Made by a program: the position numbers and the translations under genes. A stretch of 64,000 bases of DNA from Pseudofrankia coriaricola (GTDB lineage: Bacteria; Actinomycetota; Actinomycetes; Frankiales; Frankiaceae). The stretch spans positions 1 to 64,000 of the forward strand of contig NZ_MBLO01000236.1 of the NCBI RefSeq assembly GCF_001854805.1. The letters are read 5' to 3'. This document shows, piece after piece, positions 4,237-21,998 of the stretch; positions within the stretch are counted from its first letter, which is position 1, and each line of letters starts with the position of its first letter. The notes under the pieces are model-generated. The model was given only the letters and a program-made list of their open reading frames with translations. It was not told the DNA's origin and did no database searches.

Positions 4237-5829
4237 GTGAATCCCGCTATGCACGCCGCCGTCACACCGGGCAGGCCCGCGGTCGTCATGGCCGGCTCGG
4301 GGGCGACGCTGACCTACCGTGAGCTGGACGAGCGCTCGGCCCGGTTCGCGAACGTCCTGGCCGCGGCGGGGCTGCGGCGCGAAGACGGGATCGCGCTGCT
4401 GGCGGAGAACGACCTGCACTGTTTCGAGGTCTACTGGGCCGCCTTACGCAGCGGGCTGTACGTGACCCCCGTCAACTGGCACCTCTCCCCGTCCGAGGTC
4501 GCCTACATCGTCGATGACTGCGAGGCGGCGGCGCTGATCGTCTCCTCGCACCACCGCGAGCTCGCGGCCCGGATCGTCGGGGCGACCCCCCGGGTCCGGC
4601 ACCGCTACATCTTCGCCTCGACGGGCGAGCCGGCCGCCGGCGCCGCCGGCCAGCCGAGCGGCCAGCTCGACGGCCACGAGGACTACGAGCGGGCGGTCGC
4701 GGGCGCGCCGGCCGAGCGCCCCGAGGTCGAGTGGGCCGGCGCCGACATGCTCTACTCGTCCGGCACCACCGGCCGGCCCAAGGGCATCCGCCCGCCGCTC
4801 CCCCAGCACCGCATCGACAGGCCCGGGATGATCCTGCCGCCGATGCTGCAGATGCAGTACGGGATGGGCGCGGACACGGTCTACCTGTCACCGGCGCCGG
4901 CCTACCACGCGGCCCCGCTCCGGTTCGGCGCCGCGGTGCAGGCCCTCGGCGGCACGGTCGTGATGATGGAACGGTTCGAGCCGGCGGCCGCGCTCACGGC
5001 GCTGGAGAAGTACCGGGTGACGCACAGCCAGTGGGTGCCGACGATGTTCGTCCGCATGCTGAAGCTGCCCGCGGCCGAGCGGGAGCGTTCCGGCCTGTCG
5101 GCCCACCGGGCGGCGATCCACGCCGCCGCGCCGTGCCCGCCCGACGTGAAACGGGCGATGATCGACTGGTGGGGGCCGATCCTGCACGAGTACTACGCCG
5201 CCACCGAGGCGTCGGGCATCACGTTCGTCTCGTCCCAGGAGTGGCTGGAGCGGCCGGGAACGGTCGGGCGGTCCGCGCTCGGCGTCGTCCACATCTGCGC
5301 CGAGGACGGCCGGGAGCTGCCGACGGGCGAGGACGGCGTCGTCTACTTCGAGCGTGAGGCCCTGCCGTTCACGTACCACGGCGACCCGGCCGCGACCGCC
5401 GCCGCGCAGCACCCGCGGCACCCGACCTGGACGACGGTCGGCGATGTCGGCCACCTCGACGCGGACGGCTACCTCTACCTCACCGACCGGGCGACGTTCA
5501 TGATCATATCCGGCGGGGTGAACATCTACCCACAGGAGATCGAGAATGTGCTCGCCCTGCATCCGAAGATCCTCGACGTCGCGGTCATCGGCATTCCCGA
5601 CCCGGACCTGGGCGAGCGGGTGCACGCCGTCGTCGAGCCGGCCCCGGGCGTCGAGCCGGGCCCGGGCCTCGCCGACGAGCTGATCGCCTGCGTCCGGGAC
5701 CGGATCGCCCACTACAAGGCTCCGCGCGGCGTCGACTTCGTCGACGAGCTGCCGCGCACGCCGACCGGCAAGCTGCGCAAGAACCTCCTCCGCGAGCACT
5801 ATCGGTCCGCAACCGCGGCCACCGGTTGA
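4237..5829 (+). CDS. AMP-dependent acyl-CoA synthetase/ligase (FadD-like)
   Basis: Activates a carboxylic acid to its acyl-adenylate and then to the CoA thioester. All core motifs of the adenylate-forming superfamily are present in its 530 residues: A3 loop YSSGTTGRPKGI near residue 170, A5 YYAATEASG, A7/A8 VGDVGHLDADGYLYLTDR and ISGGVNIYPQEIE, and the catalytic lysine in PRTPTGKLRKN near the C-terminus. The substrate (fatty, aromatic or other acid) cannot be read from the sequence. The GTG start follows an AGGGGG ribosome site. A perfect inverted repeat just upstream suggests repressor control. Confidence 0.9.
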   Translation: MNPAMHAAVTPGRPAVVMAGSGATLTYRELDERSARFANVLAAAGLRREDGIALLAENDLHCFEVYWAALRSGLYVTPVNWHLSPSEVAYIVDDCEAAALIVSSHHRELAARIVGATPRVRHRYIFASTGEPAAGAAGQPSGQLDGHEDYERAVAGAPAERPEVEWAGADMLYSSGTTGRPKGIRPPLPQHRIDRPGMILPPMLQMQYGMGADTVYLSPAPAYHAAPLRFGAAVQALGGTVVMMERFEPAAALTALEKYRVTHSQWVPTMFVRMLKLPAAERERSGLSAHRAAIHAAAPCPPDVKRAMIDWWGPILHEYYAATEASGITFVSSQEWLERPGTVGRSALGVVHICAEDGRELPTGEDGVVYFEREALPFTYHGDPAATAAAQHPRHPTWTTVGDVGHLDADGYLYLTDRATFMIISGGVNIYPQEIENVLALHPKILDVAVIGIPDPDLGERVHAVVEPAPGVEPGPGLADELIACVRDRIAHYKAPRGVDFVDELPRTPTGKLRKNLLREHYRSATAATG

Positions 5830-5908
5830 GCCAACCAAGTGCCCGTAAGTCGTCGATCGACTACGGTTTAGCCGTCCGGACCGGAGATCAACGACGGGGT
5901 GATGGTGA

Positions 5909-7867: not shown

Positions 7868-7870
7868 CCC

Positions 7871-7888
7871 GGCGCGCGGCTTCGCGCC
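7871..7888. terminator. GC-rich hairpin between convergent genes
   Basis: GGCGCG-cggctt-CGCGCC is a 6-bp stem with a 6-nt loop, placed exactly in the short gap between the stop codons of the Hsp70 gene (+) and the thioesterase gene (-). It is likely a bidirectional terminator. Confidence 0.45.
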
Positions 7889-7889
7889 T

Positions 7890-8747
7890 CTAGCGCCCGG
7901 GGCGCGGGGCGACGAGCAGGGCCTGGGCGCCGACGCCGACCGGGCCGTCGAGGTCGGACAGCACGGTGGTGGCCAGGCCGGCGCCGCCGGGGCTGATCGC
8001 CGTCGTCGCGTCGACGCAGATCCACTCGCCGACCGGCTCGCGGTGCAGGTGCACGGTGAGCTCCGGGTTGATGAAGTACGTCGTCAGGAAGTCGGTCTCG
8101 CTGGAGATCCCGTTGCCGTTGTCGGCGAGCGCCAGCACGCGCTGCAACGGGCTGGTCTCCTCGCCGGCGACGAGCGGGTAGCTCAGCCGTCCCCACAGCG
8201 CGGCCGGCCCGGGCACGCTCATCCGGCCCCGGCCGGCCGAGCGCCACTCGATCGCGCTCGCGAACCCGCGCATGCGTCCCGGCCCGGGCGCGCGCGGCGG
8301 CGGCGCCTCCGGCAGCGGCGGGGGCGCCGGGTGGCGCGGTGGCGCGCCCGCGCCCTCGGCGCGCCTGACCCGCCAGGCGGTGGCGCGGGCGACGTCCCGG
8401 CCGCCGGCGGTGAGCACCGCCTCGACCAGCTCGACGCTGCGCCCCGGCCGGACCACCTCGGACCGCAGGCTCAGCTCGCCGACGGGCACCGGCCCGAGCA
8501 GCTCGGTGGTGAACCGCGCGATCATCATGTCCGGCCGCGGCGCGGTCCGCTCGACTGCTCGGACGAGCAGCGCGCTCGGCGGCCCGCCGTGCTGGGCGGC
8601 CGGGTCCCAGGGCCCGGCCGTGTGCCCGGTCGCGAGCCAGCGCCCGTCGCCCAGGTCGACATACAGACTCGCGGCCGGTGCCGTGGGCGGCGGACCGCCC
8701 GGCACCACGGAGGGCTCGCTCGTCGTCGACACGCCGCCGTCAGACAC
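7890..8747 (-). CDS. Thioesterase-family (acyl-CoA thioesterase-like) protein
   Basis: A 285-residue double hot-dog protein of the thioesterase-like/TesB-related family. The first hot-dog half contains WDPAAQHGGPPSALLVRAVE and the second half FLTTYFINPELTVHLHREP and WICVDATTAISPGGAGLATT, a pattern typical of actinobacterial acyl-CoA thioesterases. A Pro-rich linker joins the halves. It probably hydrolyses acyl-CoA esters and may belong with the acyl-CoA synthetase two genes away, though they are on opposite strands. The start is a GTG; in-frame alternatives exist a few codons later. Confidence 0.75.
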   Translation of the reverse strand: MSDGGVSTTSEPSVVPGGPPPTAPAASLYVDLGDGRWLATGHTAGPWDPAAQHGGPPSALLVRAVERTAPRPDMMIARFTTELLGPVPVGELSLRSEVVRPGRSVELVEAVLTAGGRDVARATAWRVRRAEGAGAPPRHPAPPPLPEAPPPRAPGPGRMRGFASAIEWRSAGRGRMSVPGPAALWGRLSYPLVAGEETSPLQRVLALADNGNGISSETDFLTTYFINPELTVHLHREPVGEWICVDATTAISPGGAGLATTVLSDLDGPVGVGAQALLVAPRPGR

Positions 8748-8829
8748 GGCCCGACGTTAGGCCGCTTCCGTCCGACCCGCCCAGCCGGGTGATCCGCATC
8801 ACAGCCGACTGGCCGACCGGGCCCGGACG

Positions 8830-9474
8830 CTACTCGTCAGCCATGCCGGTCGCCGTTGAGGCCACGGCAGGGACGGGGACAGGGACCACGGTGGGAGCGG
8901 GCAGCGGCGGCAAGGGCAACGGGAGGGCCGGGAGGCCGTCGATGCTCTGGCCGTTGAAGTCCTTCGCCTCGCAGTACGCGGCGAACTCCTCGTCGGTCTT
9001 GCGTCCGAAGTACTCGCCGTGCAGCGCGCGGTCCCCGACCGGCTCCATCAGTGGCACCTTGTATCCGCAGCTGTCGCTGACCTGCTCGGCCGTCACCACG
9101 ATGACGGCGCGCACCGACGGCTGGTCCCGCAGGGGGAAGCGGGCGAGCAGCGCGCCGAACCGCGGGTCGTCGCGGAACACCACGTCGCCGCGCCCGTGCA
9201 CCCGCACGATCTTCGGCGGCCCCCAGAACGCGCACCACATGAGCGTGATCCGCCCGTTCTCCCGCAGGTGCGCGATCGTCTCGGCGTGGCTGCCGCCCAG
9301 GTCCAGGTAGGCCACCGTGTGCTCGTCGAACACCGCGAACGTGTCCGCCCCGCCCTTCGGGGACAGGTTCACGTGCCCGTCCCCGGACAGCGGCGCCGTG
9401 GCCACGAAGAACACCGGCTGCGCCTCGACGAAGTCCCGCAGCCGCCCGTCGATCCGCTCGTAGACCTTCCCCAT
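8830..9474 (-). CDS. Pyridoxamine 5'-phosphate oxidase-family protein
   Basis: A 214-residue FMN or F420-type split-barrel protein. The segments FFVATAPLSGDGHVNLSPKGG, VAYLDLGGSHAETIAHLREN and RITLMWCAFWGPPKIVRVHG are the hallmark of the PPOX-domain subgroup that is not involved in vitamin B6 synthesis. The last 35 residues form a Pro/Ala/Val-rich tail that is probably disordered. The exact reaction is unknown. The ATG at 9474 has a weak purine-rich stretch upstream. Confidence 0.85.
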   Translation of the reverse strand: MGKVYERIDGRLRDFVEAQPVFFVATAPLSGDGHVNLSPKGGADTFAVFDEHTVAYLDLGGSHAETIAHLRENGRITLMWCAFWGPPKIVRVHGRGDVVFRDDPRFGALLARFPLRDQPSVRAVIVVTAEQVSDSCGYKVPLMEPVGDRALHGEYFGRKTDEEFAAYCEAKDFNGQSIDGLPALPLPLPPLPAPTVVPVPVPAVASTATGMADE

Positions 9475-10072: not shown

Positions 10073-12427
10073 TCAGGGGCGGGGAGGCCGCGGGCCCGGC
10101 TTGGCGAGGCTAGCCAGGTAGCGGTTGTAGGCCTCGAACTCGTCGTCCTCGCCGCTGTCCATGCGAGCGTCCTTGGCGCGGCCGTGGCGCTCCTCGGTGC
10201 GCGCCCACTGGAAGAACAGGGCGGCGAGCACCGCCAGCGACGGCAGCTCCCCGAAGCTCCACGCCATGCCGCCGCCGACCTGCTGGACGTCGAGCAGCGA
10301 GCCGCCCCACGGCCGGTCGAGCAGCCGGTAGTACGACGCGCCGATCACCTCGTTGGACATCATCAGGATCACGCCGAAGAACGTGTGCACCGCGGAGGCG
10401 AGGAACAGCAGCACGATCCGCGCCGGGTACACCGGCCGGCGCGGCCCCGGGTCAACGCCGATGAGCAGCCAGAAGAACAGGTACCCGACGACGAGGAAGT
10501 GGCACATCATCGCCAGGTGCGCGAGATGGTTGCGAAGCACCCAGCCGTACAGCGGCGTCAGGTACAGCACATACAGCGACACCGAGTACAGGGTGAACGT
10601 CACGACCGGGTGGGAGACGAACGCCAGCCAGCGGCTGTTCACGATCCGCAGCAGCCAGGCCCTGGCGCTGCGGGTGGTACCGGTGACCCCGGTCGGCAGC
10701 GCGCGCAGCGCGAGCGTCACCGGCGCGCCGAGCACCAGCAGCACCGGGGCCAGCATCATCAGCAGCAGGTGCTGGGCCATGTGCACGCTGAACAGCACCC
10801 GGCCGTAGGGGCCGAGCCCGCTGCTGGTCGCGAACGCGATGACGGCGAGCCCCATCAGCCAGCTGACGGTGCGCCCGACAGGCCAGGACGCGCCGGCGCG
10901 GCGCAGGCGGATGACCCCGGTCAGGTACAGCCAGGCGCCCAGCAGGACCACCGTGAGGAACAGCAGGTCGGGACGGGCCCCGGTGACGATCCGGCCCGCG
11001 GTGAACGGCGGCGGCATCGGGTAGCCGAGGAGCGAGACCACCGGGTCGTCGGTCGCCACGCCGTCGGCGCCCGCCGGCGTCGGGGTGCGGGACAGGCCGG
11101 CGCCGAGCGCGATGGCGACACCCATCACGGCGACCTCGGCGGCGCCGAGCCGCAGGAACGGCCGGCGCCGCCCGGGTGAGGCGGCGAGGCGACGGATCGT
11201 GAACCGCCGGTGCGCCGCGCCGAGGCCGGCGAGCACGACGAGCGCGACCGCCTTCGCGATCACCAGGTTGCCGTAGCGACTGTCGAGCAGCGCGCTCCAG
11301 CTGGCCACCCGGACGTACGCGTTGACGACGCCGCTGATGGCGACGACGACGAGGCAGAGCCCCGCGATCCCGCTGTAGCGGGTGACGGCGGTGACCAGCT
11401 CGCGCCCGCCCAGCCGGCGCCCGCCGGCGAGCAGCGCGGCGAGCCCGCCGACCCAGGCCGACACCCCGAGAACGTGCAGCCCGCCGCTGACGGTCGCGAG
11501 ATCATGGCCGCCGGAGCCGTGCGCGTGACCAGTCATCGCGACCGGGAGCAGGGCGCCGAGCGCCAGCACCGCGAGCCACGCCGACGTGTCCAGCCTGCGG
11601 GCCACCCCGGCGCCGATGGCGATCGCGAACGCGAGGCCCGCGACGATCAGCAACGCCCGCGGCTGCGGCACCGCGTCGATGACGTTGCCGACGTTGTGGC
11701 GGCTCAGCGCGCCCGGCAGCGGGCGCCCGATCAGGTCGGAGACGGTGAACGCGAACTGGGCGAGCGAGGCCACGCACCAGACCCAGGCGGCGGCGGACGC
11801 CCAGCGCAGCATCCTCCTGCCGGCCGCCCCCGGCTTCCCGCCGGCCGCCGGGAAGAGGAACGCGGCGGCGAGCAGCGCCCCGACCGTGGCGACGCCGGCC
11901 GTGTCGCACAGCAGCCGGCTGATCGGCAGCCCCCAGCCGGTGAACAGTCCAGGGTCGGCCCCGGCGAGTTCGGCCGGAAGCCGCTTCGGCGCGCCGCCGC
12001 CCGCCTTGAGCACGACGACGAGCGTCACGAGCATCGCGACGGCGCCCGCGGCCACGCCGGCGATCGCCGGCCACCGTCCCGAGCCGCCCTCGGCGCCGCC
12101 GTCGCCCTCGCCTTCTCCGCCCGTCTCCCGGGGCGTGCCGATGGCGGCGGGCGGCGTGGCTGGCGTGCCGGCAGTCGGGTCAACGGGCGGGGCGCCAGCC
12201 GAAGCGGCGACCGTGGTGGGTGTCTCGGTAATCCCGGCCACGGCGGCGTCCGCGTACGCGGCGGGTACGGCGGGAGAGCGGTCCGGCACGGAACCGTCAG
12301 CGGAGATGGCCGTGGCGGCGTCGGCCGGACCGGCGTCCGTCAGACCAGCGTCGACCGCGCCGGCGTCCGTCGGGTCCGTGTCGGCCAGGCCGGTGCCCGC
12401 GGCGGCCGGCGCCTGCTCAGGTCCCAT
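10073..12427 (-). CDS. CopD - cytochrome c oxidase assembly CtaG fusion (copper membrane protein)
   Basis: A large polytopic protein of 784 residues. The first about 130 residues are an Ala/Asp/Gly-rich low-complexity segment. The middle carries a CopD-like copper-import domain (for example GHAHGSGGHDLATVSGGLHVLG and the segment with RYSGIAGLCLVVVAISG). The C-terminal third is a caa3-type CtaG domain (VHMAQHLLLMMLAPVLLVLGAP, then HFLVVGYLFFWLLIG). CopD takes copper across the inner membrane and CtaG helps assemble the copper centre of oxidase, so the fusion links uptake with delivery. It overlaps the copC stop by 11 bp, implying translational coupling in one operon. Confidence 0.88.
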   Translation of the reverse strand: MGPEQAPAAAGTGLADTDPTDAGAVDAGLTDAGPADAATAISADGSVPDRSPAVPAAYADAAVAGITETPTTVAASAGAPPVDPTAGTPATPPAAIGTPRETGGEGEGDGGAEGGSGRWPAIAGVAAGAVAMLVTLVVVLKAGGGAPKRLPAELAGADPGLFTGWGLPISRLLCDTAGVATVGALLAAAFLFPAAGGKPGAAGRRMLRWASAAAWVWCVASLAQFAFTVSDLIGRPLPGALSRHNVGNVIDAVPQPRALLIVAGLAFAIAIGAGVARRLDTSAWLAVLALGALLPVAMTGHAHGSGGHDLATVSGGLHVLGVSAWVGGLAALLAGGRRLGGRELVTAVTRYSGIAGLCLVVVAISGVVNAYVRVASWSALLDSRYGNLVIAKAVALVVLAGLGAAHRRFTIRRLAASPGRRRPFLRLGAAEVAVMGVAIALGAGLSRTPTPAGADGVATDDPVVSLLGYPMPPPFTAGRIVTGARPDLLFLTVVLLGAWLYLTGVIRLRRAGASWPVGRTVSWLMGLAVIAFATSSGLGPYGRVLFSVHMAQHLLLMMLAPVLLVLGAPVTLALRALPTGVTGTTRSARAWLLRIVNSRWLAFVSHPVVTFTLYSVSLYVLYLTPLYGWVLRNHLAHLAMMCHFLVVGYLFFWLLIGVDPGPRRPVYPARIVLLFLASAVHTFFGVILMMSNEVIGASYYRLLDRPWGGSLLDVQQVGGGMAWSFGELPSLAVLAALFFQWARTEERHGRAKDARMDSGEDDEFEAYNRYLASLAKPGPRPPRP

Positions 12428-13130
12428 CGGTACTCCCCTGCCTGCGCCTGGCCAGCACCGCGATGACCGCGCCGCCGGCGGCCAGCACGCCGGCGCCGAC
12501 CGCGACCCCCACGATCAAGCCCGTGGACCATCCGCCGTTCCCGCTCACGTCTTCCCCGGCATTCGTCAGCGTGGTCGTGCCGCTGGTCGGGTCACCGGCC
12601 ACCGCCGGGGTTGCCGTCGGTATCGAGGCCGGGCCGGTGGAGGCGCTCGCGGCGGACGGCCTCGGCGAGGGCTGGCCCGTCGCGGCCGTCGCGGTGAAAG
12701 TGATCTCGCCGCTGACCGGGTGGCCGTCCGCGGAGACCACCCGGTAGGCGAGCCGGTAGGTTCCCGCCGGCCGGTTGGCGGCCAGCGGCTGGGTGACGGT
12801 CGCGCCGTCGAGGACCGCCTCGCCCGCGGCGACGCTGGCGCCGGCGGGCCCCTCGACCGCGACCGCGCCCAGGCCCAGCAGATGCTGGGCGAACAGCAAC
12901 TCGACATGATCGGGCGCGGTCGGGACGGTCTCGCCGTTGGCCGGCGTGCTCGACGTCAGCTGGGTGTGCGCACTCGCGGGCGACGCCCCGGCGAGGATCG
13001 CGAGCGTCGCCAGCCCACCCACCAGGGCGGCGGCGAGGACGGCCGTGCCAGGGGCCCGTCGCCGGTGGGGAGGTCTCACGCCGAGGGCCTCGGCGAGGCT
13101 CCCTCGCCGTCCGGCAACGACTCCGCGCAT
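12417..13130 (-). CDS. copC: Copper-resistance protein CopC, membrane anchored
   Basis: An exported copper-binding protein of 237 residues. A signal sequence ends in ASPASA, and the mature protein would begin HTQLTSSTPANGE, placing a histidine at the N-terminus (H55 of the precursor), as in the Cu(II) site of CopC. The second ligand histidine lies in SADGHPVSGEITF. An Ala/Ser/Thr/Pro linker then leads to a C-terminal transmembrane helix and a basic stop-transfer sequence. The ATG at 13130 is preferred because GGAG is 6 nt away; a GTG at 13211 would add 27 residues. It is the first gene of an operon with the CopD-CtaG fusion and lies below a palindromic operator. Confidence 0.87.
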   Translation of the reverse strand: MRGVVAGRRGSLAEALGVRPPHRRRAPGTAVLAAALVGGLATLAILAGASPASAHTQLTSSTPANGETVPTAPDHVELLFAQHLLGLGAVAVEGPAGASVAAGEAVLDGATVTQPLAANRPAGTYRLAYRVVSADGHPVSGEITFTATAATGQPSPRPSAASASTGPASIPTATPAVAGDPTSGTTTLTNAGEDVSGNGGWSTGLIVGVAVGAGVLAAGGAVIAVLARRRQGSTDGT

Positions 13131-13216
13131 CGGCGACTCCAGCCCCAGCCCCGCCAGGCGCGGCGGCGGCGGGCTCGGCTCCAGGGCCGCACCGCCACCG
13201 TTCACACCCACGCTCG

Positions 13217-13235
13217 CTTCTACGTCACGTCGAAG
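13217..13235 (-). promoter_or_regulatory. Copper-cluster operator 1, upstream of copC
   Basis: CTTCTACG-tca-CGTCGAAG is an 8+8 inverted repeat with one mismatch and a 3-bp centre. It is the same sequence as the operator upstream of the neighbouring membrane-protein gene (13704-13722) apart from that mismatch and the centre. On the minus strand a plausible -10 box TATCTT (13233-13238) overlaps its upstream edge. The half-site CTACG/CGTAG resembles sites of the BlaI/CopY class of repressors (inference). Confidence 0.55.
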
Positions 13236-13260
13236 ATACCTGGCCCGTCGTCGCCCTCCG

Positions 13261-13689
13261 CTACCGCCAGAGGACGGCGATCAGCACGTTGACGAGGGCA
13301 AGGCCGCCGGCCAGGTTCACCGGCGCCCGCAGGTCCACCGCCCGCGCCGCCGGCACGGTGCCGGCGCTCGCGCTCGCGCTGGCGCTGGCAAGCGCGGGCA
13401 GCGCCCGCTCCTCGTCGTCGCGCCGCAGTCCAAGGTAGGCGACGGCGAAGACCGCCAGCGCGACGACCAGCTTCACGCCGATCTTGGCGTTGTCGACGTC
13501 GTGGTCGACCGCGCCCGACGACGCCAGCCCCACCAGCACCGGCCCGCTGATCACCTGGGTGACCGCGCCGTACACGACCACCGCCGGCACTCGCGGCCGG
13601 ACGGCCCCAAGCTGCGTCAGCCACCCCCCGACGACAGCGGCCATCCCGACCAGGTGCACGACCACGATGAGATCCCAGACCGTCTCCAT
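13261..13689 (-). CDS. Four-helix integral membrane protein of the copper cluster
   Basis: A 142-residue protein with about four transmembrane helices (LIVVVHLVGMAAVVGGWLTQ; VVVYGAVTQVISGPVLVGLA; KLVVALAVFAVAYLGL; LAGGLALVNVLIAVLW). A Ser/Ala-rich loop separates the third and fourth. I recognise no named family with certainty. The topology and histidine in helix 1 recall small CopD-like or DUF2269-type proteins. A near-identical operator shared with copC suggests a role in copper handling. The ATG at 13689 may be leaderless, because a -10 box TAGCGT ends 7 nt before it. Confidence 0.72.
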   Translation of the reverse strand: METVWDLIVVVHLVGMAAVVGGWLTQLGAVRPRVPAVVVYGAVTQVISGPVLVGLASSGAVDHDVDNAKIGVKLVVALAVFAVAYLGLRRDDEERALPALASASASASAGTVPAARAVDLRAPVNLAGGLALVNVLIAVLWR

Positions 13690-13703
13690 GCGCGTCACGC
13701 TAT

Positions 13704-13722
13704 CTTCTACGCACCGTAGAAG
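13704..13722 (-). promoter_or_regulatory. Copper-cluster operator 2, overlapping the membrane-protein promoter
   Basis: CTTCTACG-cac-CGTAGAAG is a perfect 8+8 inverted repeat with a 3-bp centre. On the minus strand it sits directly before the -10 box TAGCGT (13697-13702), that is, in the -35/-10 spacer of a likely leaderless promoter for the gene starting at 13689. Bound protein would block RNA polymerase. Its twin is at 13217-13235. Confidence 0.6.
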
Positions 13723-14039
13723 CGACGCCGGCCGCGCGCCGGATGGCTGCCCTCAGGGATGGCCGCGCGAGCGCGGCCGTCACGGCCGCCCAGCAGCGCC
13801 GCGAGCGCCGCGAGCATGGCCCGCAGCGCCGCACCGACGCCAGGATGCCCGCCGTCGGCGCCGGCCGCCCAAGGTCGCGGGGGATGAGTGAGTACGTCGG
13901 CGGGAGGTCCGGCCGGGGCGAGCCGGCGCGGTCATTTCGTCCCGGTGGCGGAAACGATTGCCGCGCTTGGTCTTTTGTAGGGTGGCTCACGGGCCGGGCA
14001 CGGGCGCTCGGACGAGCTCGGTCGCGAGGAGACACGGGT

Positions 14040-15350
14040 GTGGCCAGGCAGAGCGCGGGCGGGGAAGACGACCTCGCGTCCGACCGTGAGTCGGCAACGA
14101 GCGGCGACGTCGCGGGTCGGGCCGATGTCGCCCGGGAGGCGGCCGAGCTCGCCCGCGGTACGGCGCAGATAATTCCCGAAGGCGGCCTGGAAGCCAGGCT
14201 CGCCGAGGCAAGATCGGCACGGCGGCCGCTGCGGGTGAAACTCGGCGTCGATCCGTCAGGGTCGGATCTCACCCTCGGCCACGCCGTGGTGCTCCGCAAG
14301 CTTCGCCAGTTCCAGGACCATGGGCATATCGCGGTTCTGATCGTCGGGGACTTCACCGGACAGATCGGTGATCCGACCGGCCGGACACAGACCCGGAAGG
14401 CGCTCTCCGCGGACCGGACGAGAGCGAACGCACAGACCTACCTCCGGCAGGCTCTGAAGATCCTCCGCGAGGACCAGCTCGAGCTTCGTTACAACTCCGA
14501 CTGGCTCGCCAAGATGAGCCTCGTCGAGGTGCTGGAGACGAGCCGGCTGCTCACGGTCGCCCGCCTGCTGGAGCGGGACGACTTCGCCCGGCGATACCAG
14601 GCCGGACTGCCGATAAGCCTCATGGAGTTCATGTACCCGATGCTCCAGGGAATGGACTCGGTCGCGATCCGGTCCGACATCGAGATAGGCGGCACCGACC
14701 AGACCTACAACAACCTGGTCGGCCGGACCCTGCAGAAGGAAGCCAACCAGAATCCGCAGCTGATCCTGACAATGCCGTTGCTGCGCGGGACCGACGGTGC
14801 CGAGAAGATGGGGAAGTCGCTCGGCAACTGGATTTCGCTGAACGATTCACCGGACGATCAGTATGGCAAGGTCATGTCGATCGCCGATGACCTTCTGACC
14901 CACTATGCCGAGCTGTGCTGCAACTGGGACGCCGGCACCCTGGACACGTTCACCGAGTCGGCTCGCGCGAAGCCGATGGAGGCGAAGCTCGCGCTGGCCC
15001 GAAGGATCGTCGAGCTGTACCACGGTGCCGCTGCCGCGCAGGACACCGCTCGTCGTTTCGACGAGCGGTTCCGCCGCCGCAGGCTGCCGGTCGACGCTCC
15101 GGAGTTCTCCATCGCCCAGTTCGGCGACAAGGTTGACATCGTCGATCTGCTGTGTGCGGCCAACCTTGCCGCGTCGAAGAGCGAGGCTCGCCGCCTGCTC
15201 GCCGCCCAGGCGATCCGGCTTGACGGCGACAAGGTGTCGCCCGAACCCGCGCCACTCACCGTGCAGGCGTTGGACGGGAAGATTCTCCAGCGTGGCAAAC
15301 TACGCGCGGTGCGCCTGCTGGGCGCCGGCTCGGCTCAGGCCGGTCAATAG
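14040..15350 (+). CDS. tyrS: Tyrosyl-tRNA synthetase, TyrZ-like (type 2)
   Basis: Charges tRNA-Tyr with tyrosine. The 436-residue protein has the class I core (LRVKLGVDPSGSDLTLGHAV, VLIVGDFTGQIGDPTGRTQT, MYPMLQGMDSVA, IEIGGTDQTYNNL), a KMGKS loop near residue 256, and a C-terminal S4 RNA-binding domain (AASKSEARRLLAAQAIRLDG). This is the TyrZ/type-2 branch, different from the usual housekeeping actinobacterial enzyme. The HIGH motif reads TLGH and KMSKS reads KMGKS. The GTG start is well supported by GAGGAG at 14026-14031. Codon use is less extreme in GC than in the neighbours, hinting at transfer. A second TyrRS elsewhere in the genome is likely. Confidence 0.9.
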   Translation: MARQSAGGEDDLASDRESATSGDVAGRADVAREAAELARGTAQIIPEGGLEARLAEARSARRPLRVKLGVDPSGSDLTLGHAVVLRKLRQFQDHGHIAVLIVGDFTGQIGDPTGRTQTRKALSADRTRANAQTYLRQALKILREDQLELRYNSDWLAKMSLVEVLETSRLLTVARLLERDDFARRYQAGLPISLMEFMYPMLQGMDSVAIRSDIEIGGTDQTYNNLVGRTLQKEANQNPQLILTMPLLRGTDGAEKMGKSLGNWISLNDSPDDQYGKVMSIADDLLTHYAELCCNWDAGTLDTFTESARAKPMEAKLALARRIVELYHGAAAAQDTARRFDERFRRRRLPVDAPEFSIAQFGDKVDIVDLLCAANLAASKSEARRLLAAQAIRLDGDKVSPEPAPLTVQALDGKILQRGKLRAVRLLGAGSAQAGQ

Positions 15351-15419
15351 CGGCGGCCAGCCCGCCCGCTCCGGGACCTCGCGGTTGGGCCAGTGTTCGC
15401 GAAAGGGGTTCCAGGCCGC

Positions 15420-15630
15420 CGGTTCCCTGGTCGGACAGGATCTGTCGCACAACGCCGAAAAACTGATCCGGATGGGTTTTCGGCAGGAAGTGGCCCCCGG
15501 GAAGCTCGAATATCTCAAAACGAGCCGTTGTCCGTTCCCGCCAGGCGACGACGTCCTCCCGCGACAGGGATGGGTCGGCGCAGCCATGTATCGCGGTGAT
15601 CGGGCAGGGCAGTCCCGGTGCGGACGTGTA
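15420..15630 (-). pseudogene. C-terminal remnant of a type II thioesterase
   Basis: The minus strand contains an open stretch encoding YTSAPGLPCPITAIHG, then a Trp/Thr segment (VVAWRERTTARFEIFEL) and PGGHFLPKTHPDQFFGVV. This is the C-terminal third of a GrsT-type editing thioesterase, including the catalytic histidine of GGHF and the CPITA strand that leads to the catalytic acid. Upstream the homology stops: there is no GHSMGG nucleophile region and no start codon in a plausible place. It is therefore a gene fragment left by a deletion. Such enzymes normally accompany NRPS or PKS clusters, and none is present here. Confidence 0.65.
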
Positions 15631-15812
15631 CCGGTGACGGTTGCGGCCGTTGAGGCCACGACGGTGCAGACCGTGATCACCGATCTGATCGCTGCAGCGC
15701 CATCAGCGGGACTGCCGCAGAGTACTGTTGAGCGTTCCGCCGCACGAGAGCACACATGCACGGGCACGCGAATGTGGGAACGACGACAGTCCCGAAGGAG
15801 ACAGCGCGCCCG

Positions 15813-17276
15813 ATGATCGCGCCGCCCGCGACCACGATGGCGCGGACGCCGTGGGGGGACGCGCGCGGGGTGGATCTGGGCGCGGTGCGGGTGTGGCGCG
15901 GGCTGCCGTATGCGGCGGCGCCGGTCGGGCCGGCGCGGTTCCGGCCGCCGCGGCCGCCCGAGCCGTGGGCGGGCGAACGCGACTGCTCGGCGTTCGGCCC
16001 GACGAGCCCGCAGCTGCGGCTGCCGGGGCTTCGCGGACCGGGACGGCGCGCCCGGGCGCCACGCGGCTCCGAGGACTGCCTCTACCTCAACGTCTGGTCA
16101 CCGGAGCCCGGGCCCGGCGGGCAGCAGCGGCCAGTGCTGGTGTGGATCCACGGCGGCGGCTTCGTCAGCGGCGCCGGCAGCTCGTTCGACGGGGCGCGCC
16201 TGGCCGCCCGCGGCGACGCCGTCGTCATCACGATCAACTACCGGCTCGGCCCGTGGGGCCACCTCGACCTGGCGCCGGACGAGCCGGCGCCGGGCAACGA
16301 GCCGAGGGGTGTCAACCTGGCGCTGCTCGACCAGATCGCCGCGCTGCGCTGGGTGCGCGACGCGGTGGGCGCGTTCGGCGGCGACCCGGGGCGGGTGACC
16401 GTCTTCGGGGAGTCCGCCGGGGCGATCTACATCGGCGGGCTGCTGGCCGCGCCCGCCGCCCGCGGGCTGTTCCACCGGGCGGTGCTCCAGAGCGGCGCGG
16501 CCCATCACGTCCGCGGCCTCGCCGCCGCCCAGGCCGTCCGCCGCCGCCTGGTCGAGCATCTCGGCCGCCCACCGGCCGAGGCGTCGACGGCCGATCTGGT
16601 CCGCGCAGGCGAGGCGCTGCTCGTCACGTCGAACGACCCGTTCCTGCAGACCGTCGACGGCGTGGTGCTGCCCGAGCCGCCGATGGAGGCGATCGCGGGC
16701 GGGTCGTGCCGGGACGTGCCGCTGCTGGTCACGTGGTGCCGCGACGAGATGGAGCTGTTCCTGACGCTCGCCCCGGACGTGGTGCCGGCGGCCGAGGAGG
16801 CGCGGGTACGGGCGGCGCTCGGCGGCGACCAGTGGCGGCGCCTGCTCGCCCGCTACGCCGAGGACCACGGCGCCCGCGCCCGCTCCGCGCTGCTGACCGA
16901 CGCGGCGTTCGCCATGCCGGCGGCGCGCCTCGCCGACGCCGCGCACGCCGCGGGCGGCCGCGTCTGGATGCTGCGCTTCGACCACCTCGACCACCTCGGT
17001 GACCACGTGCGAGTCCCACACGGTGCCGACCTTCCGCTGACCTGGGGGCGGGCCGACGCCGCGAGCCCCGACCCGGCCCGGCGGGCCGCCGCGCTGTGGC
17101 AGGACGCCCTGCTGGCGTTCGCCCGCGCGGGCGACCCGGCCACCCCGGGCCTGCCGCTCTGGCCCCGCCACGACCCCGACCGCCGGCCGGTCCTGCTGCT
17201 GACCACCTCGCCGCGGGTCGTCGACCGCCCCGGCGAGCGCCGCGACGCCGCTTGGACCGGCCTGCCGCTGCCCTAG
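15813..17276 (+). CDS. Carboxylesterase (type B)
   Basis: Alpha/beta-hydrolase of 487 residues that hydrolyses carboxylic esters. The family signature is complete: RGLPYAAAPVGPARFRPP near the N-terminus, SEDCLYLNVW, the oxyanion hole in VLVWIHGGGF, and the nucleophile elbow FGESAG with Ser about residue 201. A late histidine in VPHGADLPLTWG probably completes the triad. Cytoplasmic, with no signal peptide. The ATG at 15813 is preferred over 15756 because AAGGAG at 15795 precedes it, though the 12-nt spacing is long. Confidence 0.88.
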   Translation: MIAPPATTMARTPWGDARGVDLGAVRVWRGLPYAAAPVGPARFRPPRPPEPWAGERDCSAFGPTSPQLRLPGLRGPGRRARAPRGSEDCLYLNVWSPEPGPGGQQRPVLVWIHGGGFVSGAGSSFDGARLAARGDAVVITINYRLGPWGHLDLAPDEPAPGNEPRGVNLALLDQIAALRWVRDAVGAFGGDPGRVTVFGESAGAIYIGGLLAAPAARGLFHRAVLQSGAAHHVRGLAAAQAVRRRLVEHLGRPPAEASTADLVRAGEALLVTSNDPFLQTVDGVVLPEPPMEAIAGGSCRDVPLLVTWCRDEMELFLTLAPDVVPAAEEARVRAALGGDQWRRLLARYAEDHGARARSALLTDAAFAMPAARLADAAHAAGGRVWMLRFDHLDHLGDHVRVPHGADLPLTWGRADAASPDPARRAAALWQDALLAFARAGDPATPGLPLWPRHDPDRRPVLLLTTSPRVVDRPGERRDAAWTGLPLP

Positions 17277-17530
17277 TCAGCCCCGCGCCGCGAACCGTGG
17301 CCGACGGCAGTGCCCCGCAACATCGAGGGGAAGGGTCCCGGGAGCGGCGAGCGGGAGAGCGGGAAGATGCGCCGGGTCACGGGATCAAGGGGTACGCCGG
17401 GCGGCGGCCTGTTGTTGCTCGTGTGTGACAGGTAGCTCAAGACGCGATAAATCCTGCCGGCCGGGTGAATGGTGCTGGGGCAGCGGACGTTGACGCTGGG
17501 GTCGGTGCGGTCGCGGGTGGAAGGAAGATC

Positions 17531-19501
17531 GTGAGCTCCAGGTATGTGATCATCGGCGCCGGTGCGGTGGGCGCGAGCGTCGCCGCTCAGCTGACCGAGG
17601 CCGGTATCCCGGTGGTGGTGGTCGCGCGCGGCGCGAACCTGACCGCGCTGCGTGAGCACGGGCTGCGCTACCTGCGGCCGGACGGGGAACGGCGGGTGGC
17701 GTTCGACGTCGCGGCCGGCCCGGACGAGGTCCGGCTGCGCGCCGGCGACGTGCTGGTGCTCGCGACCAAGTCGCAGGACGCGGAGGCGCTGCTGGCCACC
17801 TGGGCCTGGCAGCCAGTCGACGGGGCAGAGCCGGGCCCCGGCGCGGCTCCCGGTGAGGCCGCGGTGGCCGCCGAGGTGCTGCCTGTCGTCCTGCCGCAGA
17901 ACGGCATCGACAGTGTCCGCAGCGCCCTGCGCCGGTTCACCACCGTGATCGACACGGTGGTCATCATCCCGGCGATCCATCTGCGCCCAGGGGAGGTCGT
18001 CTCCCCCGGCACGCCGCAGGTCGGCGGGTTCGTCATCGGGCGCGCGCCGCGCGGCGGCGGTCCCGCCTCGACGCTCGCGGGTGACCGGGCGGCGGAGCAG
18101 GTGGCGGCCGACCTGCGGCGCGCCGGGTTCGCCACCACCGTCGTCGACGACATCGGCCGTTACAAGGCCGGCAAGCTGCTCAGCAACCTCGCCTACAACC
18201 TCGACGCGGCCGTCGGCCCCGGCCCGTTGCGCGACGCGGCCGTCGCCGCCGTCGTCGACGAGGCGCGGGCCGCGTTCGCCGCGGCCGGCATCGAGCCCGC
18301 CGAGCCGATCACGGCTCCTGGCCTGGACCTGACCGGCTGGTCGATCAAGGAGATCTCCGGTTACGAACGCTCCGGCAGTTCCACCTGGCAGAGCCTCGCG
18401 CGGGGTGCCTCCGTCGAGTCCGACTACCTCAACGGCGAGATCGTGCTGCTCGCCCGCCTGAACGGGATCGAGGCACCGGTGAACGCGGCGCTCGCCCGCT
18501 GGATCGCCGCCGCGGCCCGCCGCGGCGCGGCCCCGTCGTCGTTCGGCGAGGCGGAGCTGGCGGCCGTGCTCACCGCCGCCGGCCGGCCGCTCCCTTTCTC
18601 CGCCGCCTCGTCCGCCGCCTCGTCGGCGGGCGGCGGCGGCGCGGCTGAAGGCGTCCCGGCTCCCGCGGCCGTCCTGGTCGACCCCAAGCCGCTGCACGAC
18701 GAACTGCTCGCCGCCGACCCGCCGCTGCTGCTCGACGTCCGCTGGGCGCTCGGCGACGCGCGCGGGCGTGAGCACCACCGCGCGGGCCACCTGCCGGGCG
18801 CCGTCTACGTCGACCTGGAGACCGAGCTCGCCGCGCCGGCGGCCGTTCCCGGGGGGCGTCACCCGCTGCCCGACGCGGCGGCGTTGACCGCCGCCGCCCG
18901 CCGCTGGGGCCTGACCGCGGGGCGGCGGGTCGTCGTCTACGACGACAACGGCGGCCAGTCGGCCGCCCGGGCCTGGTGGCTGCTGCGCTGGGCCGGTGTC
19001 GGCGACGTGCGCATCCTCGACGGCGCGCTCGCCGCCTGGCGCGCGGCCGACCTGCCGCTGGAGGACGGAGAGGTCACCCCGGCGCCGGGTGACGTGCTGC
19101 TGCGGGGCGGCGCGCTGCCGACCGTGGACGCCGCCGGGGCGGCGCGGATCACCGTCGAGGGGATCCTGCTCGACGCCCGCGCCGGCGAGCGCTACCGCGG
19201 CGAGCATGAACCCGTCGACCCGCGCGCCGGCCACATCCCGGGGGCCCGCTGCGCGCCGACCGCGGCCAACCTCGACGAGAACGGCCGGTTCCTGCCGCCG
19301 GACGAGCTGCGCGCGCGGTTCGGCGCCCTCGGCGCGGGCGAGGGCAACGGGGTGGTCGGCGTCTACTGCGGCTCCGGCGTCACGGCCGCCCATGAGATCG
19401 CGGCGCTCGCCGTGGCCGGCATCGACGCCGTGCTCTATCCCGGGTCGTGGTCGGACTGGTCGTCCGACTCGGATCGCCCGGTCGCGACCGGCGCCGGCTG
19501 A
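17531..19501 (+). CDS. Ketopantoate reductase-like / tandem rhodanese fusion protein
   Basis: A 656-residue two-part protein. Residues 1 to about 340 form a PanE/ApbA-like NADPH-dependent reductase: IIGAGAVG at 7-14, VLPQNGIDS, and YKAGKLLSNLAYN with the candidate catalytic lysine near 212-215. An Ala/Ser/Gly linker follows. Residues about 380-656 form two rhodanese domains as in 3-mercaptopyruvate sulfurtransferases (LLLDVRWALGD, GHLPGAVYVDLE, then ILLDARAGERYRG and the active loop YCGSGVTA with Cys613). The GTG at 17531 has GGAAGGAAG just upstream; a start at 17465 is possible. The fusion is unusual and suggests a redox step coupled to sulfur transfer; the substrate is unknown. Confidence 0.85.
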   Translation: MSSRYVIIGAGAVGASVAAQLTEAGIPVVVVARGANLTALREHGLRYLRPDGERRVAFDVAAGPDEVRLRAGDVLVLATKSQDAEALLATWAWQPVDGAEPGPGAAPGEAAVAAEVLPVVLPQNGIDSVRSALRRFTTVIDTVVIIPAIHLRPGEVVSPGTPQVGGFVIGRAPRGGGPASTLAGDRAAEQVAADLRRAGFATTVVDDIGRYKAGKLLSNLAYNLDAAVGPGPLRDAAVAAVVDEARAAFAAAGIEPAEPITAPGLDLTGWSIKEISGYERSGSSTWQSLARGASVESDYLNGEIVLLARLNGIEAPVNAALARWIAAAARRGAAPSSFGEAELAAVLTAAGRPLPFSAASSAASSAGGGGAAEGVPAPAAVLVDPKPLHDELLAADPPLLLDVRWALGDARGREHHRAGHLPGAVYVDLETELAAPAAVPGGRHPLPDAAALTAAARRWGLTAGRRVVVYDDNGGQSAARAWWLLRWAGVGDVRILDGALAAWRAADLPLEDGEVTPAPGDVLLRGGALPTVDAAGAARITVEGILLDARAGERYRGEHEPVDPRAGHIPGARCAPTAANLDENGRFLPPDELRARFGALGAGEGNGVVGVYCGSGVTAAHEIAALAVAGIDAVLYPGSWSDWSSDSDRPVATGAG

Positions 19502-19506
19502 CGGGC

Positions 19507-19524
19507 TGCCCGACCGACCGGGCA
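19507..19524 (+). terminator. Hairpin after the reductase-rhodanese gene
   Basis: TGCCCG-accgac-CGGGCA is a 6-bp perfect stem starting 6 bp after the stop codon. It lies before the promoter region of the next gene and has no T-tract. Confidence 0.4.
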
Positions 19525-19621
19525 CGGCCGCCGGGCATGCCTGACCGAGCATGGCTGGCCGGCCCGGTCACCATGCCCGGTCGCGGGTGACGGAAGGAAC
19601 GTGGGCGACGGAAGCGGAAGA

Positions 19622-19697: not shown

Positions 19698-21245
19698 ATG
19701 TCCGCCGAACCCGGCAGCGCCGCGTCATCAAGCCCCGGCGCCGCCACCGGCGACCGCCCGGCCATCGGTGCGCACCCGAATCCGCACACGCCGGGGCGGG
19801 GCAACACGACGGTGATCTTCGTCACGCTCGCGCTCGGCGCATCCGCGTACACGGTGCTGCAGTCGCTGGTCCTGCCGGCGCTGCCCGTGATCCAGCACGA
19901 CCTGCACACCTCGCAGGTGACGGTCTCGTGGCTGCTGACCGCGTTCCTGCTCTCCGCGTCGATCGCCACGCCGATCCTGGGCCGCATCGGCGACCTGTTC
20001 GGCAAGCGGCTGATGCTGATGGTCGTCTTCGCCGCGCTCAGCGTCGGCTCGCTGATCTCGGGGCTGAGCGACTCGATCGGTCTGCTCATCCTCGCCCGGG
20101 TCATCCAGGGAATGGCCGGCGCGATCTTCCCGCTGTCGTTCGGCATCATCCGCGACGAGTTCCCGGCTGCCAAGGTCCCCGCCGCGATCGGCCTGATGTC
20201 CGGCATGCTCGGCATCGGCAGCGGCCTGGGCGTCGTGCTCGCCGGACCGATCGTCGAGTCGCTGGGGTGGCACTGGCTGTTCTGGTTCCCGCTGATGGTG
20301 TCCGGGCTCTCGCTGGTCGCGACGATCTTCTTCATCCCCGAGTCGCCAGTGCGGGCGACCGGCTCGGTGAACCTGCCGGCGGCGGGCGCGCTCGCCGCGT
20401 GGCTGGTGGCGCTGCTGCTCGGCCTGTCCAAGGGCTCCACCTGGGGCTGGGCCTCGGCCGGCACGATCGGTCTGTTCGTCGCCGCGGTCGCGCTGTTCGC
20501 CGTGTGGGTGCTGGTGGAGAGCCGCTCGGCGGTGCCGCTGATCGACCTGCAGGTGATGCGGATCCCGGCGGTGTGGTGGACGAACGCCGCCGCGCTGCTG
20601 CTCGGCATCGGGATGTACGCGACGTTCATCGTCGTGCCGCCGATGATGCAGACACCGAAGAGCGTCGGCTACGGCCTCGGCGCGTCGGTGACGCTCTCGG
20701 GCCTGTACATGCTGCCGGGCACCGTCGCGATGCTCGTCGTCGGCGTCCTGATCGGCCGGATCACCGAACGGTTCGGCTCGAAACTGCCGCTGGTGGTCGG
20801 CTCCGTGGTGGCGGCGGCGGCCTGTGCCCTGCTGGTCGTCGACCACGGCTCGCCGTGGGACTTCATCGTGATGTCGGGCGTGCAGGGCATCGGCATCGGC
20901 CTGGCGTTCTCCTCGATGGCCAACCTGATCATCCAGTCCGTGCCGATCGAGACGACCGGCGCCGCCACCGGCATGAACGCCAACATCCGCACCATCGGCG
21001 GGTCGATCGGCAGCGGGATCGTCGCGAGCGTGCTCGCCTCCGGCGCCCTGCCGAGCGGATACCCGAAGGAGTCCAGCTACGTCACCAGCCTGGTGCTGCT
21101 GGGCGTGGCGACGCTGGCCGCGGCGCTGGCCGGCGCGCTGGTCCCGACCCTGCGGGCCAGGTCGGGTCGGACCGGCGAGACGGCTTCGTCGGCGCCGGCC
21201 GCCGCGGCGGCCGGCGAGGCCGTGGCCGCTCCGGCGGCGAGCTGA
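19698..21245 (+). CDS. MFS multidrug efflux transporter, DHA2-like
   Basis: A 515-residue proton-coupled exporter with about 14 transmembrane helices. Motif A is LGRIGDLFGKRLMLM in the first cytoplasmic loop. The antiporter region follows as ARVIQGMAGAIFPLSFGIIR and GLMSGMLGIGSGLGVVLAGP (motif C). The C-terminus is an Ala-rich soluble tail. The ATG at 19698 (MSAEPGSAASS) is preferred to upstream in-frame starts, which would add non-conserved sequence. It is followed after 27 bp by a TetR regulator on the same strand, a usual self-regulated drug-efflux pair. Confidence 0.9.
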   Translation: MSAEPGSAASSSPGAATGDRPAIGAHPNPHTPGRGNTTVIFVTLALGASAYTVLQSLVLPALPVIQHDLHTSQVTVSWLLTAFLLSASIATPILGRIGDLFGKRLMLMVVFAALSVGSLISGLSDSIGLLILARVIQGMAGAIFPLSFGIIRDEFPAAKVPAAIGLMSGMLGIGSGLGVVLAGPIVESLGWHWLFWFPLMVSGLSLVATIFFIPESPVRATGSVNLPAAGALAAWLVALLLGLSKGSTWGWASAGTIGLFVAAVALFAVWVLVESRSAVPLIDLQVMRIPAVWWTNAAALLLGIGMYATFIVVPPMMQTPKSVGYGLGASVTLSGLYMLPGTVAMLVVGVLIGRITERFGSKLPLVVGSVVAAAACALLVVDHGSPWDFIVMSGVQGIGIGLAFSSMANLIIQSVPIETTGAATGMNANIRTIGGSIGSGIVASVLASGALPSGYPKESSYVTSLVLLGVATLAAALAGALVPTLRARSGRTGETASSAPAAAAAGEAVAAPAAS

Positions 21246-21272: not shown

Positions 21273-21998
21273 ATGACCTCCGTGGCCTCGGCGGCGTCGG
21301 TCTCGGCCGCGCCGGCTTCGGCGGGGCCGGTCCCGGCGTCCGTCGCACCGGCGCGGACGCCGGCGCGCGCCGAGCGGCTGCGCTGCGACGCGGCGCGCAA
21401 CCGGGAGCGGGTGCTGGCCGCCGCGCTGGAGCTCTACCGGGAGCACGGCGGCGCGTTCACCGTCGAGGAGGTCGCGAGCCGCGCCGGCGTCGGGATCGGC
21501 ACCGTCTACCGGCGCTTCCCGACGAAGAACGCGCTGCTCGACGAGCTGGCCCGCCCGTTCTTCGAGCAGCTGCTGACGACCGCCCAGGCCGCCTATGCCC
21601 ACCCGGAGCCGGCCGAGCGCCTCGAGATGTTCATCCGGGCGATGGCCGAGCAGCACGCCACCGACGGTGTCCGCTCGGGCCGGCTGTGGGACACGGCCGT
21701 CGCCCGGCCGCTGCGCGACGAGTACGTGCGCACCCTCGAACTGATCCTCGCCGACGCGAGGGCCTCCGGCCGGGTCCGCGCCGACGTCGGCCCGTACGAC
21801 GTCGGCGTGGTCGTCTGGTCGGTCACCGGCCTGATCGACGCGACCCAGCACGCCGCCCCGGTGATCTGGCGCCGCTACCTGGACCTGCTCGTCGACGGCC
21901 TGCGCCCGGGTGGCGAGCGCCCGCTCGCCACCCGCCCCGTCACGCAGAGCGACTGGGAGCAGCTCGTCTCCGCCAGCCCCGTGCTCCGCCTCGGCTGA
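21273..21998 (+). CDS. TetR-family transcriptional regulator
   Basis: A 241-residue regulator. After an Ala/Pro/Ser-rich leader of about 35 residues comes the TetR DNA-binding domain: NRERVLAAALELYREHG, then TVEEVASRAGVGIGTVYRRF with the recognition helix GIGTVYRRF, and the start of the ligand-binding domain. It is probably cotranscribed with the MFS pump 27 bp upstream and is the obvious candidate to control it. The first residues may be over-called; an internal start near the DNA-binding domain is possible. Confidence 0.9.
   Translation: MTSVASAASVSAAPASAGPVPASVAPARTPARAERLRCDAARNRERVLAAALELYREHGGAFTVEEVASRAGVGIGTVYRRFPTKNALLDELARPFFEQLLTTAQAAYAHPEPAERLEMFIRAMAEQHATDGVRSGRLWDTAVARPLRDEYVRTLELILADARASGRVRADVGPYDVGVVVWSVTGLIDATQHAAPVIWRRYLDLLVDGLRPGGERPLATRPVTQSDWEQLVSASPVLRLG

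Follow-up and report, generated by a model that had tools for sequence, protein, structure and literature searches.

What function could be served by a single polypeptide that combines a relative of ketopantoate reductase (PanE/ApbA) with a relative of 3-mercaptopyruvate sulfurtransferase? This question is raised by a gene of Pseudofrankia coriaricola that is located in a stretch of 64,000 nucleotides of contig NZ_MBLO01000236.1 (hereafter, the window) and encodes such a fusion. The fusion is real and conserved, and no description of it was found in the literature searched, although the component enzymes are known; the main catalytic motifs of both halves are retained, and in most of the carrier loci compared, the gene is surrounded by relatives of organosulfur acquisition genes. 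We give roughly an even chance to the interpretation of the fusion as a bifunctional enzyme of organosulfur assimilation that acts around 3-mercaptopyruvate and 3-mercaptolactate, where we infer the substrates, the direction of the reaction and the coupling of the halves from sequence. The fused gene and its parts are the following.

17531..19501, plus strand: fused gene for a PanE/ApbA-like reductase and a mercaptopyruvate-type tandem rhodanese, 656 amino acids (single open frame; full-length homologues in Frankiaceae)
17519..17527, plus strand: possible ribosome-binding site GGAAGGAAG, ahead of GTG 17531 (proposed from the sequence)
17531..18580, plus strand: reductase half, residues 1-350 (Pfam, alignments, motif table)
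18581..18664, plus strand: linker rich in Ala, Ser, Gly and Pro, residues 351-378 (sequence; mostly very low model confidence)
18665..19498, plus strand: mercaptopyruvate-sulfurtransferase-like half, residues 379-656, with Cys613 encoded by TGC 19367-19369, in CGSGVTA (Pfam, motif table)

The initial annotation described a single uninterrupted frame joining a reductase to a tandem rhodanese, and this is confirmed for all 656 amino acids. The frame is free of stops from GTG 17531 to TGA 19499-19501 on the plus strand (the list of open reading frames places the start upstream, at the in-frame GTG 17465), and all the Pfam domains score above the curated cut-offs: ApbA at residues 6-159 (58.8 bits against 22.2), ApbA_C at residues 235-326 (36.8 against 22.7) and Rhodanese over two stretches (84.5 against 22.2). 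The motifs named at the outset are all located in the protein, namely, GAGAVG at residues 9-14, KAGKLLSN from 212 and the CGSGVTA loop from 613, as is the Ala/Ser/Gly linker; STWQS starts at residue 284. A structure model built from a 20-row alignment has a mean predicted local distance difference test score (pLDDT) of 84.5 and consists of two mostly well-predicted parts, with pLDDT below 50 at residues 357-378, within the linker, and a predicted template modelling score of 0.55, which is too low to trust the relative placing of the two halves. In the fold search with this model, the top PDB match was 4jgt, the human mercaptopyruvate sulfurtransferase, and the reductase half matched the ketopantoate reductases 3hwr and 5ayv. 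A 759-amino-acid open frame on the opposite strand (17273-19552, minus) spans the entire fused gene and is most likely a by-product of the high G+C content.

Separate translation of the two halves, which had been named as a way in which the fusion could fail, was examined in the linkers. No ATG was detected in the linkers of the 33 fused copies scanned, some of which come from the same strain twice; 32 of these 33 linkers contain GTG or TTG codons, some common to close relatives and none family-wide. For the window copy, the sole candidate internal start is a GTG (residue 345) that falls where the reductase ends and has GGAG 10-13 bases upstream. Because close relatives share some GTG codons, and no start codon is family-wide, a second half translated from this GTG appears unlikely.

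A search for the same domain order elsewhere, as the initial annotation had proposed, found both enzymes joined within a single frame in 25 of the 35 genomes examined from the order, all of which belong to one family. The carriers include 7 of the 8 genomes from the window's genus and, in three other genera, 11 of 13, 3 of 5 and 4 of 6 genomes, respectively; there are none in three genera represented by a single genome each. Two genomes contain two fusions each, for a total of 27 fused loci, and two genomes where the locus runs into a contig end (G015 and G034) were scored as misses. Given that the same order is found in one frame in so many genomes, an assembly artefact or a frameshift join is ruled out. 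Among the matches listed, the closest named record to the 11.2-Mb window genome comes from Pseudofrankia asymbiotica (L032; 87% in the best segment). Among the best 80 loci from a collection of 84,980 species, 9 match both halves, all of them from Frankia, Pseudofrankia or a Frankiales metagenome-assembled genome, and for the remaining 71, the match is to the sulfurtransferase half. Of 167 matching plasmid records, four cover at least 80% of the fusion at one place; all four come from Ketogulonicigenium vulgare, and in the one that was read, the reductase and the sulfurtransferase are separate genes. In a class-wide search, a reductase match at 1e-50 was detected in 88 of 296 genomes, 25 within the family and 63 outside it, and no fusion to the sulfurtransferase was found at the 20 loci examined (L200-L219) of these 63 genomes.

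Is the N-terminal half simply a ketopantoate reductase of pantothenate and coenzyme A synthesis that became joined to a sulfurtransferase by happenstance? The presence of both ApbA and ApbA_C above the Pfam cut-offs and the retention of the main catalytic residues are in accord with this possibility. The window reductase contains QNG from residue 123 (with N124), K215, S284, E296 and an equivalent of N180; K215, S284 and E296 correspond to what we take to be K176, S244 and E256 of E. coli PanE, where the catalytic positions are presumably these Lys, Ser and Glu together with Asn98 and Asn180. The equivalents of K176, S244 and E256 are present in all 26 aligned fused proteins (the reductase pattern in the motif table already demanded the serine). 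The position of N184 depends on the alignment, with Asn found by counting from the Lys and Tyr found in the alignment, and N241 of PanE was dropped as a mark of specificity because this position varies; 3hwr also appears different by eye. Nevertheless, we consider an ordinary ketopantoate reductase improbable. Two further PanE-like genes of the window genome outscore the fused gene against ApbA (100.6 and 96.9 against 60.8 bits), which rules out the fused protein as the sole ketopantoate reductase of the organism, and in the reductase tree, both these proteins group with what we take to be the E. coli PanE sequence, with the fused ones outside, albeit with long branches. Furthermore, the branch that includes the fused reductases recurs in organosulfur-type clusters, and its annotation as ketopantoate reductase is probably wrong.

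The gene neighborhoods lead to a different assignment. At 18 of the 23 fused loci compared, there is at least one gene for a GlcD-like protein (an FAD-linked hydroxyacid dehydrogenase), an SfnB-like protein (acyl-CoA-dehydrogenase fold), an SsuD/SfnG-like luciferase-family monooxygenase (LLM) or a family-5 binding protein like TIGR04028, hereafter the module genes; in L126, the last 4 bases of the fusion are shared with the GlcD-like gene. The fused loci also frequently encode permeases and an ATPase of ATP-binding cassette (ABC) transporters, a LysR regulator, and a thioesterase or alpha/beta hydrolase. These 23 loci are not independent because they are related, and most of the query proteins came from L126 and L137, so that these loci match themselves; L032, which is of the window type, is outside the count, as are short loci from G019, G025, G030 and G033. 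The five fused loci that lack module genes are the window, L122, L123, L136 and L033. The sulfur role of the clusters is suggested by the gene families that are present in them.

The same signal is missing from the loci used for comparison. At the same threshold, neither module genes nor a sulfurtransferase were found at any of 26 other unfused actinobacterial reductases (L146, L148, L149, L151, L152, L156, L157 and L201-L219), with a general ABC-transporter match at 8 of the 26 and, at a looser threshold, a 26% luciferase-family match at L218 and L219. Module genes were likewise not found at the lone type-A reductases L134 and L138 (the two types of fusion are described below), the cut-off loci L154 and L155, or six stand-alone sulfurtransferase loci (L150, L153 and L158-L161). 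Among the 71 loci that match the sulfurtransferase half alone, 7 contain a gene with 24-32% identity to an SfnB-like, GlcD-like or family-5 binding protein. The module itself is present at none of the 71, so that a generic sulfurtransferase is not by itself the source of the signal. Three loci (L139, L145 and L147) contain module genes with the sulfurtransferase alone in the operon; in two of these, L145 (at 8019-9230) and L147, the sulfurtransferase and GlcD-like genes flank a gene for S-adenosylmethionine synthetase. The Streptomyces relatives of the reductase in L152, L156, L157 and L201, although not L202, adjoin genes that by eye look like those for sulfate assimilation (cysD/cysN-like, sulfonate-type ABC and cbiX-like, the names being assigned by eye, and in L152 the ABC and cbiX-like part alone being visible).

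Separate neighbors of the two kinds, which the initial annotation recommended looking for in other species, exist in three lineages. In an actinobacterium of another family (L200), a LysR gene (5151-6029) is followed by the sulfurtransferase (6026-6871), the reductase (6973-8004) and an SfnB-like gene (8001-9188), with a hydrolase and a GlcD-like gene diverging. The Ketogulonicigenium vulgare plasmid (L170) encodes a binding protein, two permeases, an ATPase, the reductase, an LLM and the sulfurtransferase, and the Agrobacterium tumefaciens pAt plasmid (L185) encodes the reductase, a TetR protein, a DsbA-type isomerase, sseA, an FAD-binding oxidase-type protein, a molybdopterin oxidoreductase, an importer, two LLMs and an acyl-CoA dehydrogenase. 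A GlcD-like or FAD-linked hydroxyacid dehydrogenase is thus present in two of the three clusters (L200 and L185). In Neorhizobium (L187), a D-2-hydroxyacid dehydrogenase (by Pfam) is accompanied by TctB of a tripartite transporter, an isomerase, sseA, a D-lactate dehydrogenase, a sulfoxide reductase and an importer; no reductase of the fused kind was found in the stretch read, and this gene content fits keto/hydroxy-acid chemistry. Roseinatronobacter (L186) has genes of a tripartite tricarboxylate transporter followed by an FAD-linked oxidase and the sulfurtransferase, with no reductase of the fused kind in the stretch. Of 97 plasmid records that match the reductase, the neighborhoods of 13 were read: all 8 stronger ones (L170, L172, L173, L174, L185, L189, L190 and L191) contain module genes, and none of the five weak ones (H203, H206, H207, H211 and H220) does, one of these adjoining an NtaA/DmoA monooxygenase and one being a truncated gene. 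A Streptomyces plasmid encodes the sulfurtransferase with an importer and an LLM, without the reductase. The rhizobial clusters (L185 at 11294-16564, L187, L190 and L172) additionally encode a molybdopterin oxidoreductase, which in L187 is annotated as a biotin/methionine sulfoxide reductase, along with a DsbA-type protein, and these additional genes suggest sulfoxides among the substrates. Thus, the statement of the initial annotation that the two activities lack an established common pathway gives way to a different picture, in which both co-occur in a recurring gene module.

The fusions come in two types that differ in the length of the linker between the same two markers, 31-109 amino acids in type A, to which the window copy belongs, and 27 in every copy of type B. 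Both trees that we built are quick ones, without bootstraps. In the reductase tree, the fused proteins fall in one group of 28 rows (Shimodaira-Hasegawa-like approximate likelihood ratio test (SH-aLRT) support of 93) that includes L134 and L138, which lack the sulfurtransferase, and 11 unfused reductases, namely, those of the eight proteobacterial clusters, L200, L146 and L148, form a second group (SH-aLRT 99). In the sulfurtransferase tree, the fused halves form one group of 27 rows with a support of 83, in which the L139 row is unfused; this group is nested among actinobacterial sulfurtransferases, bar one metagenome-assembled genome named Acidobacteriaceae. A long branch splits the Agrobacterium and Ketogulonicigenium sulfurtransferases from those of actinobacteria (the tree was rooted there by choice), and because of this branch, the pairing of the reductase with the sulfurtransferase looks to have been assembled more than once. 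The simplest reading appears to be a single fusion in the ancestor of Frankiaceae, later losses of either half, and an independent gathering of the genes in Proteobacteria.

Could the halves then lack a joint function, the fusion being either a neutral join of co-expressed neighbors or, in the window lineage, a remnant that has acquired another role next to a carboxylesterase? Because the sulfurtransferase stands alone in the operon at three loci (L139, L145 and L147) and the type-A reductase stands alone at two (L134 and L138), the join can be absent or lost, and the window copy has left the operon. Between the window and its nearest relatives L122 and L032, the ratio of nonsynonymous to synonymous substitution rates (dN/dS) of the reductase half is 0.19, and the sulfurtransferase half has values of 0.23 and 0.26, that is, both halves are under purifying selection; against L123 and L136, the values are 0.42-0.45 and 0.26-0.30, respectively, so that the window copy is kept, with the reductase half drifting faster at the greater distance. 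This selection, together with the retention of the fusion in 25 of the 35 genomes with variable linkers and conserved domains, makes the absence of a joint function a distinctly unlikely explanation in our assessment.

The surroundings of the window copy are described by three further genes.

15813..17276, plus strand: carboxylesterase-family gene (PF00135), the upstream neighbor kept in the genus (start by codon usage; the longest open reading frame starts at 15756; Pfam, gene order)
19698..21245, plus strand: major facilitator superfamily (MFS) transporter gene, downstream (start by codon usage; the longest open reading frame starts at 19551; Pfam)
21273..21998, plus strand: TetR-family regulator gene (Pfam)

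A carboxylesterase gene lies directly upstream of the type-A gene in the window, L122, L123, L134, L136 and L032. A thioesterase or an alpha/beta hydrolase is also present in many of the sulfur operons, as if a hydrolase belonged to the step.

Several observations weigh against the assignment of the fusion to organosulfur assimilation. The window copy sits outside an organosulfur operon, between the carboxylesterase and MFS genes, with no organosulfur module genes in the 17 kb between 10001 and 27000 of the window; the best homologues of two operon proteins searched for in the window genome are distant (45% identity for the GlcD-like and 28% for the SfnB-like protein), and no TIGR04028 match at 1e-80 was found in this genome, where 6 of 396 Actinomycetota genomes have one. 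Both halves score below the cut-offs of their best NCBIfam families, the reductase half with 118.8 bits against 141.35 for 2-dehydropantoate 2-reductase (TIGR00745) and the sulfurtransferase half with 141.6 bits against 250 for 3-mercaptopyruvate sulfurtransferase (NF008557, its top match). The type-B fusions lack the equivalent of N180 of PanE. The unfused reductases of the organosulfur branch in L146 and L148 have no adjoining module genes; the sulfurtransferase is found within the stretch at no more than 2 of the 8 proteobacterial reductase clusters read, and the sulfurtransferases on the Pseudomonas and second Ketogulonicigenium plasmids (L175 and L188) come without the module. Finally, SsuD-type monooxygenases release sulfite, which needs no sulfurtransferase. 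The original suggestion that the protein handles a mercapto-2-oxo acid accordingly stands in part: the main catalytic motifs are kept and the unfused relatives are paired in organosulfur-type clusters, and the window copy lies outside that module. Among the unfused cluster partners, sseA of A. tumefaciens passes the NF008557 cut-off with 282.8 bits, and the Ketogulonicigenium protein falls under it with 203.3. The type-B reductases L124, L135, L137, L143, L144 and L038 have Ser at the N180 equivalent and, by counting, Ala or Val at the N184 position; as the N180 equivalent is missing from type B, the two types may differ in substrate, and the type-B reductase halves may act on another substrate or be impaired.

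How would a bifunctional enzyme of organosulfur assimilation work? Mercaptopyruvate sulfurtransferases convert 3-mercaptopyruvate to pyruvate and a cysteine persulfide, and CGSGVTA is present in all 26 fused proteins; Cys613 of the C-terminal half would take the sulfur from 3-mercaptopyruvate, yielding pyruvate and an enzyme persulfide that would be discharged by thiols. The N-terminal half would be an NADP(H)-dependent oxidoreductase of 2-keto and 2-hydroxy acids from a PanE/ApbA branch that recurs in organosulfur-type clusters. The combination of a keto/hydroxy-acid oxidoreductase with a mercaptopyruvate enzyme and a GlcD-like hydroxyacid dehydrogenase points to the pair 3-mercaptolactate and 3-mercaptopyruvate, and the reductase half most likely would interconvert these two compounds or a close thio-2-oxo acid. 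The fusion would keep the reactive keto-thiol on one protein. Reduction is the favored direction for enzymes of this kind; therefore, the pull of the irreversible sulfur transfer on the otherwise unfavorable oxidation with NADP+ would be a reason for the fusion. Alternatively, the reductase could shield the cell from excess 3-mercaptopyruvate. In most carrier Frankiaceae, the enzyme would act within an organosulfur-assimilation operon with an importer, flavin monooxygenases, a hydrolase and an FAD-linked hydroxyacid dehydrogenase, and in the window lineage, it would have been retained outside the operon, beside the carboxylesterase.

The joint presence of the reductase and the FAD-linked hydroxyacid dehydrogenase in Frankiaceae operons and rhizobial clusters, as if one reduced and the other oxidized, also allows for an arrangement in which the pathway is shared and a single intermediate is not. 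The reductase half would then act at least one step earlier, reducing an S-substituted mercaptopyruvate or another thio-2-oxo acid to the corresponding hydroxy acid; monooxygenases would strip the S-substituent, the GlcD-like enzyme would re-oxidize mercaptolactate, and the sulfurtransferase would finish. The equivalent of R31, an arginine that we take to be expected for NADPH, is present in all 26 aligned fused reductases, in agreement with this scheme, which by itself leaves the direct fusion to the sulfurtransferase unexplained; we regard it as rather unlikely.

Returning to the bifunctional enzyme of organosulfur assimilation, its place in metabolism can be sketched, tentatively and with more doubt than conviction, as a previously undescribed sulfur-assimilation pathway that was assembled more than once in soil bacteria and leads from thioether or thiol hydroxy acids through 3-mercaptolactate and 3-mercaptopyruvate to sulfane sulfur, with the Frankia fusion as the committed step, where sulfur transfer would pull the uphill NADP+-linked oxidation on the same polypeptide. 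In any case, the fusion is a Rosetta-stone link between the 'ketopantoate reductase' branch, the mercaptopyruvate sulfurtransferase and organosulfur-type clusters with TIGR04028-like importers; it gives a concrete, testable guess at the substrate of these clusters and would lead to correction of the pantothenate annotation for genes of this branch in rhizobia and actinobacteria. No description of a reductase-sulfurtransferase fusion was found in the open-licence literature searched, and among the papers listed on mercaptolactate, TIGR04028 and the gene set, no such bacterial system was found, the work on mercaptolactate being mainly mammalian. In one study, a protein named PanG, possibly of the fused-reductase branch, is among those raised more than 4-fold in Rhodococcus on dibenzothiophene compared to sulfate (PMC8557817). 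A Frankia sulfurtransferase, possibly of the same family, is included in a proteomics table (PMC5411423).

Among the known systems, SsuD/MsuD and SfnG-SfnB organosulfur acquisition comes closest in gene context: the frequent neighbors of the fusion are related to these flavoenzymes and to the TIGR04028 binding protein, but they score under the curated cut-offs, and MsuD releases sulfite. To our knowledge, no organosulfur system combines a keto-acid reductase with a mercaptopyruvate sulfurtransferase. The C-terminal half resembles SseA/MPST (NF008557) in the tandem rhodanese, the CGSGVTA loop and the best fold matches, and differs in falling under the equivalog cut-off and in being C-terminal to a reductase. 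YnjE and EanB, other multi-domain rhodaneses, were also among the fold matches and are not known to contain a reductase domain. The N-terminal half is similar to the PanE/ApbA 2-dehydropantoate 2-reductase (TIGR00745; PF02558 and PF08546) in its domains, fold matches, nucleotide loop and K/S/E positions; unlike PanE, however, the fused reductases occupy their own branch, read STWQS where E. coli PanE, we assume, reads SMLQD, score under the TIGR00745 cut-off, have relatives in an organosulfur-type gene context and are joined to a sulfurtransferase.

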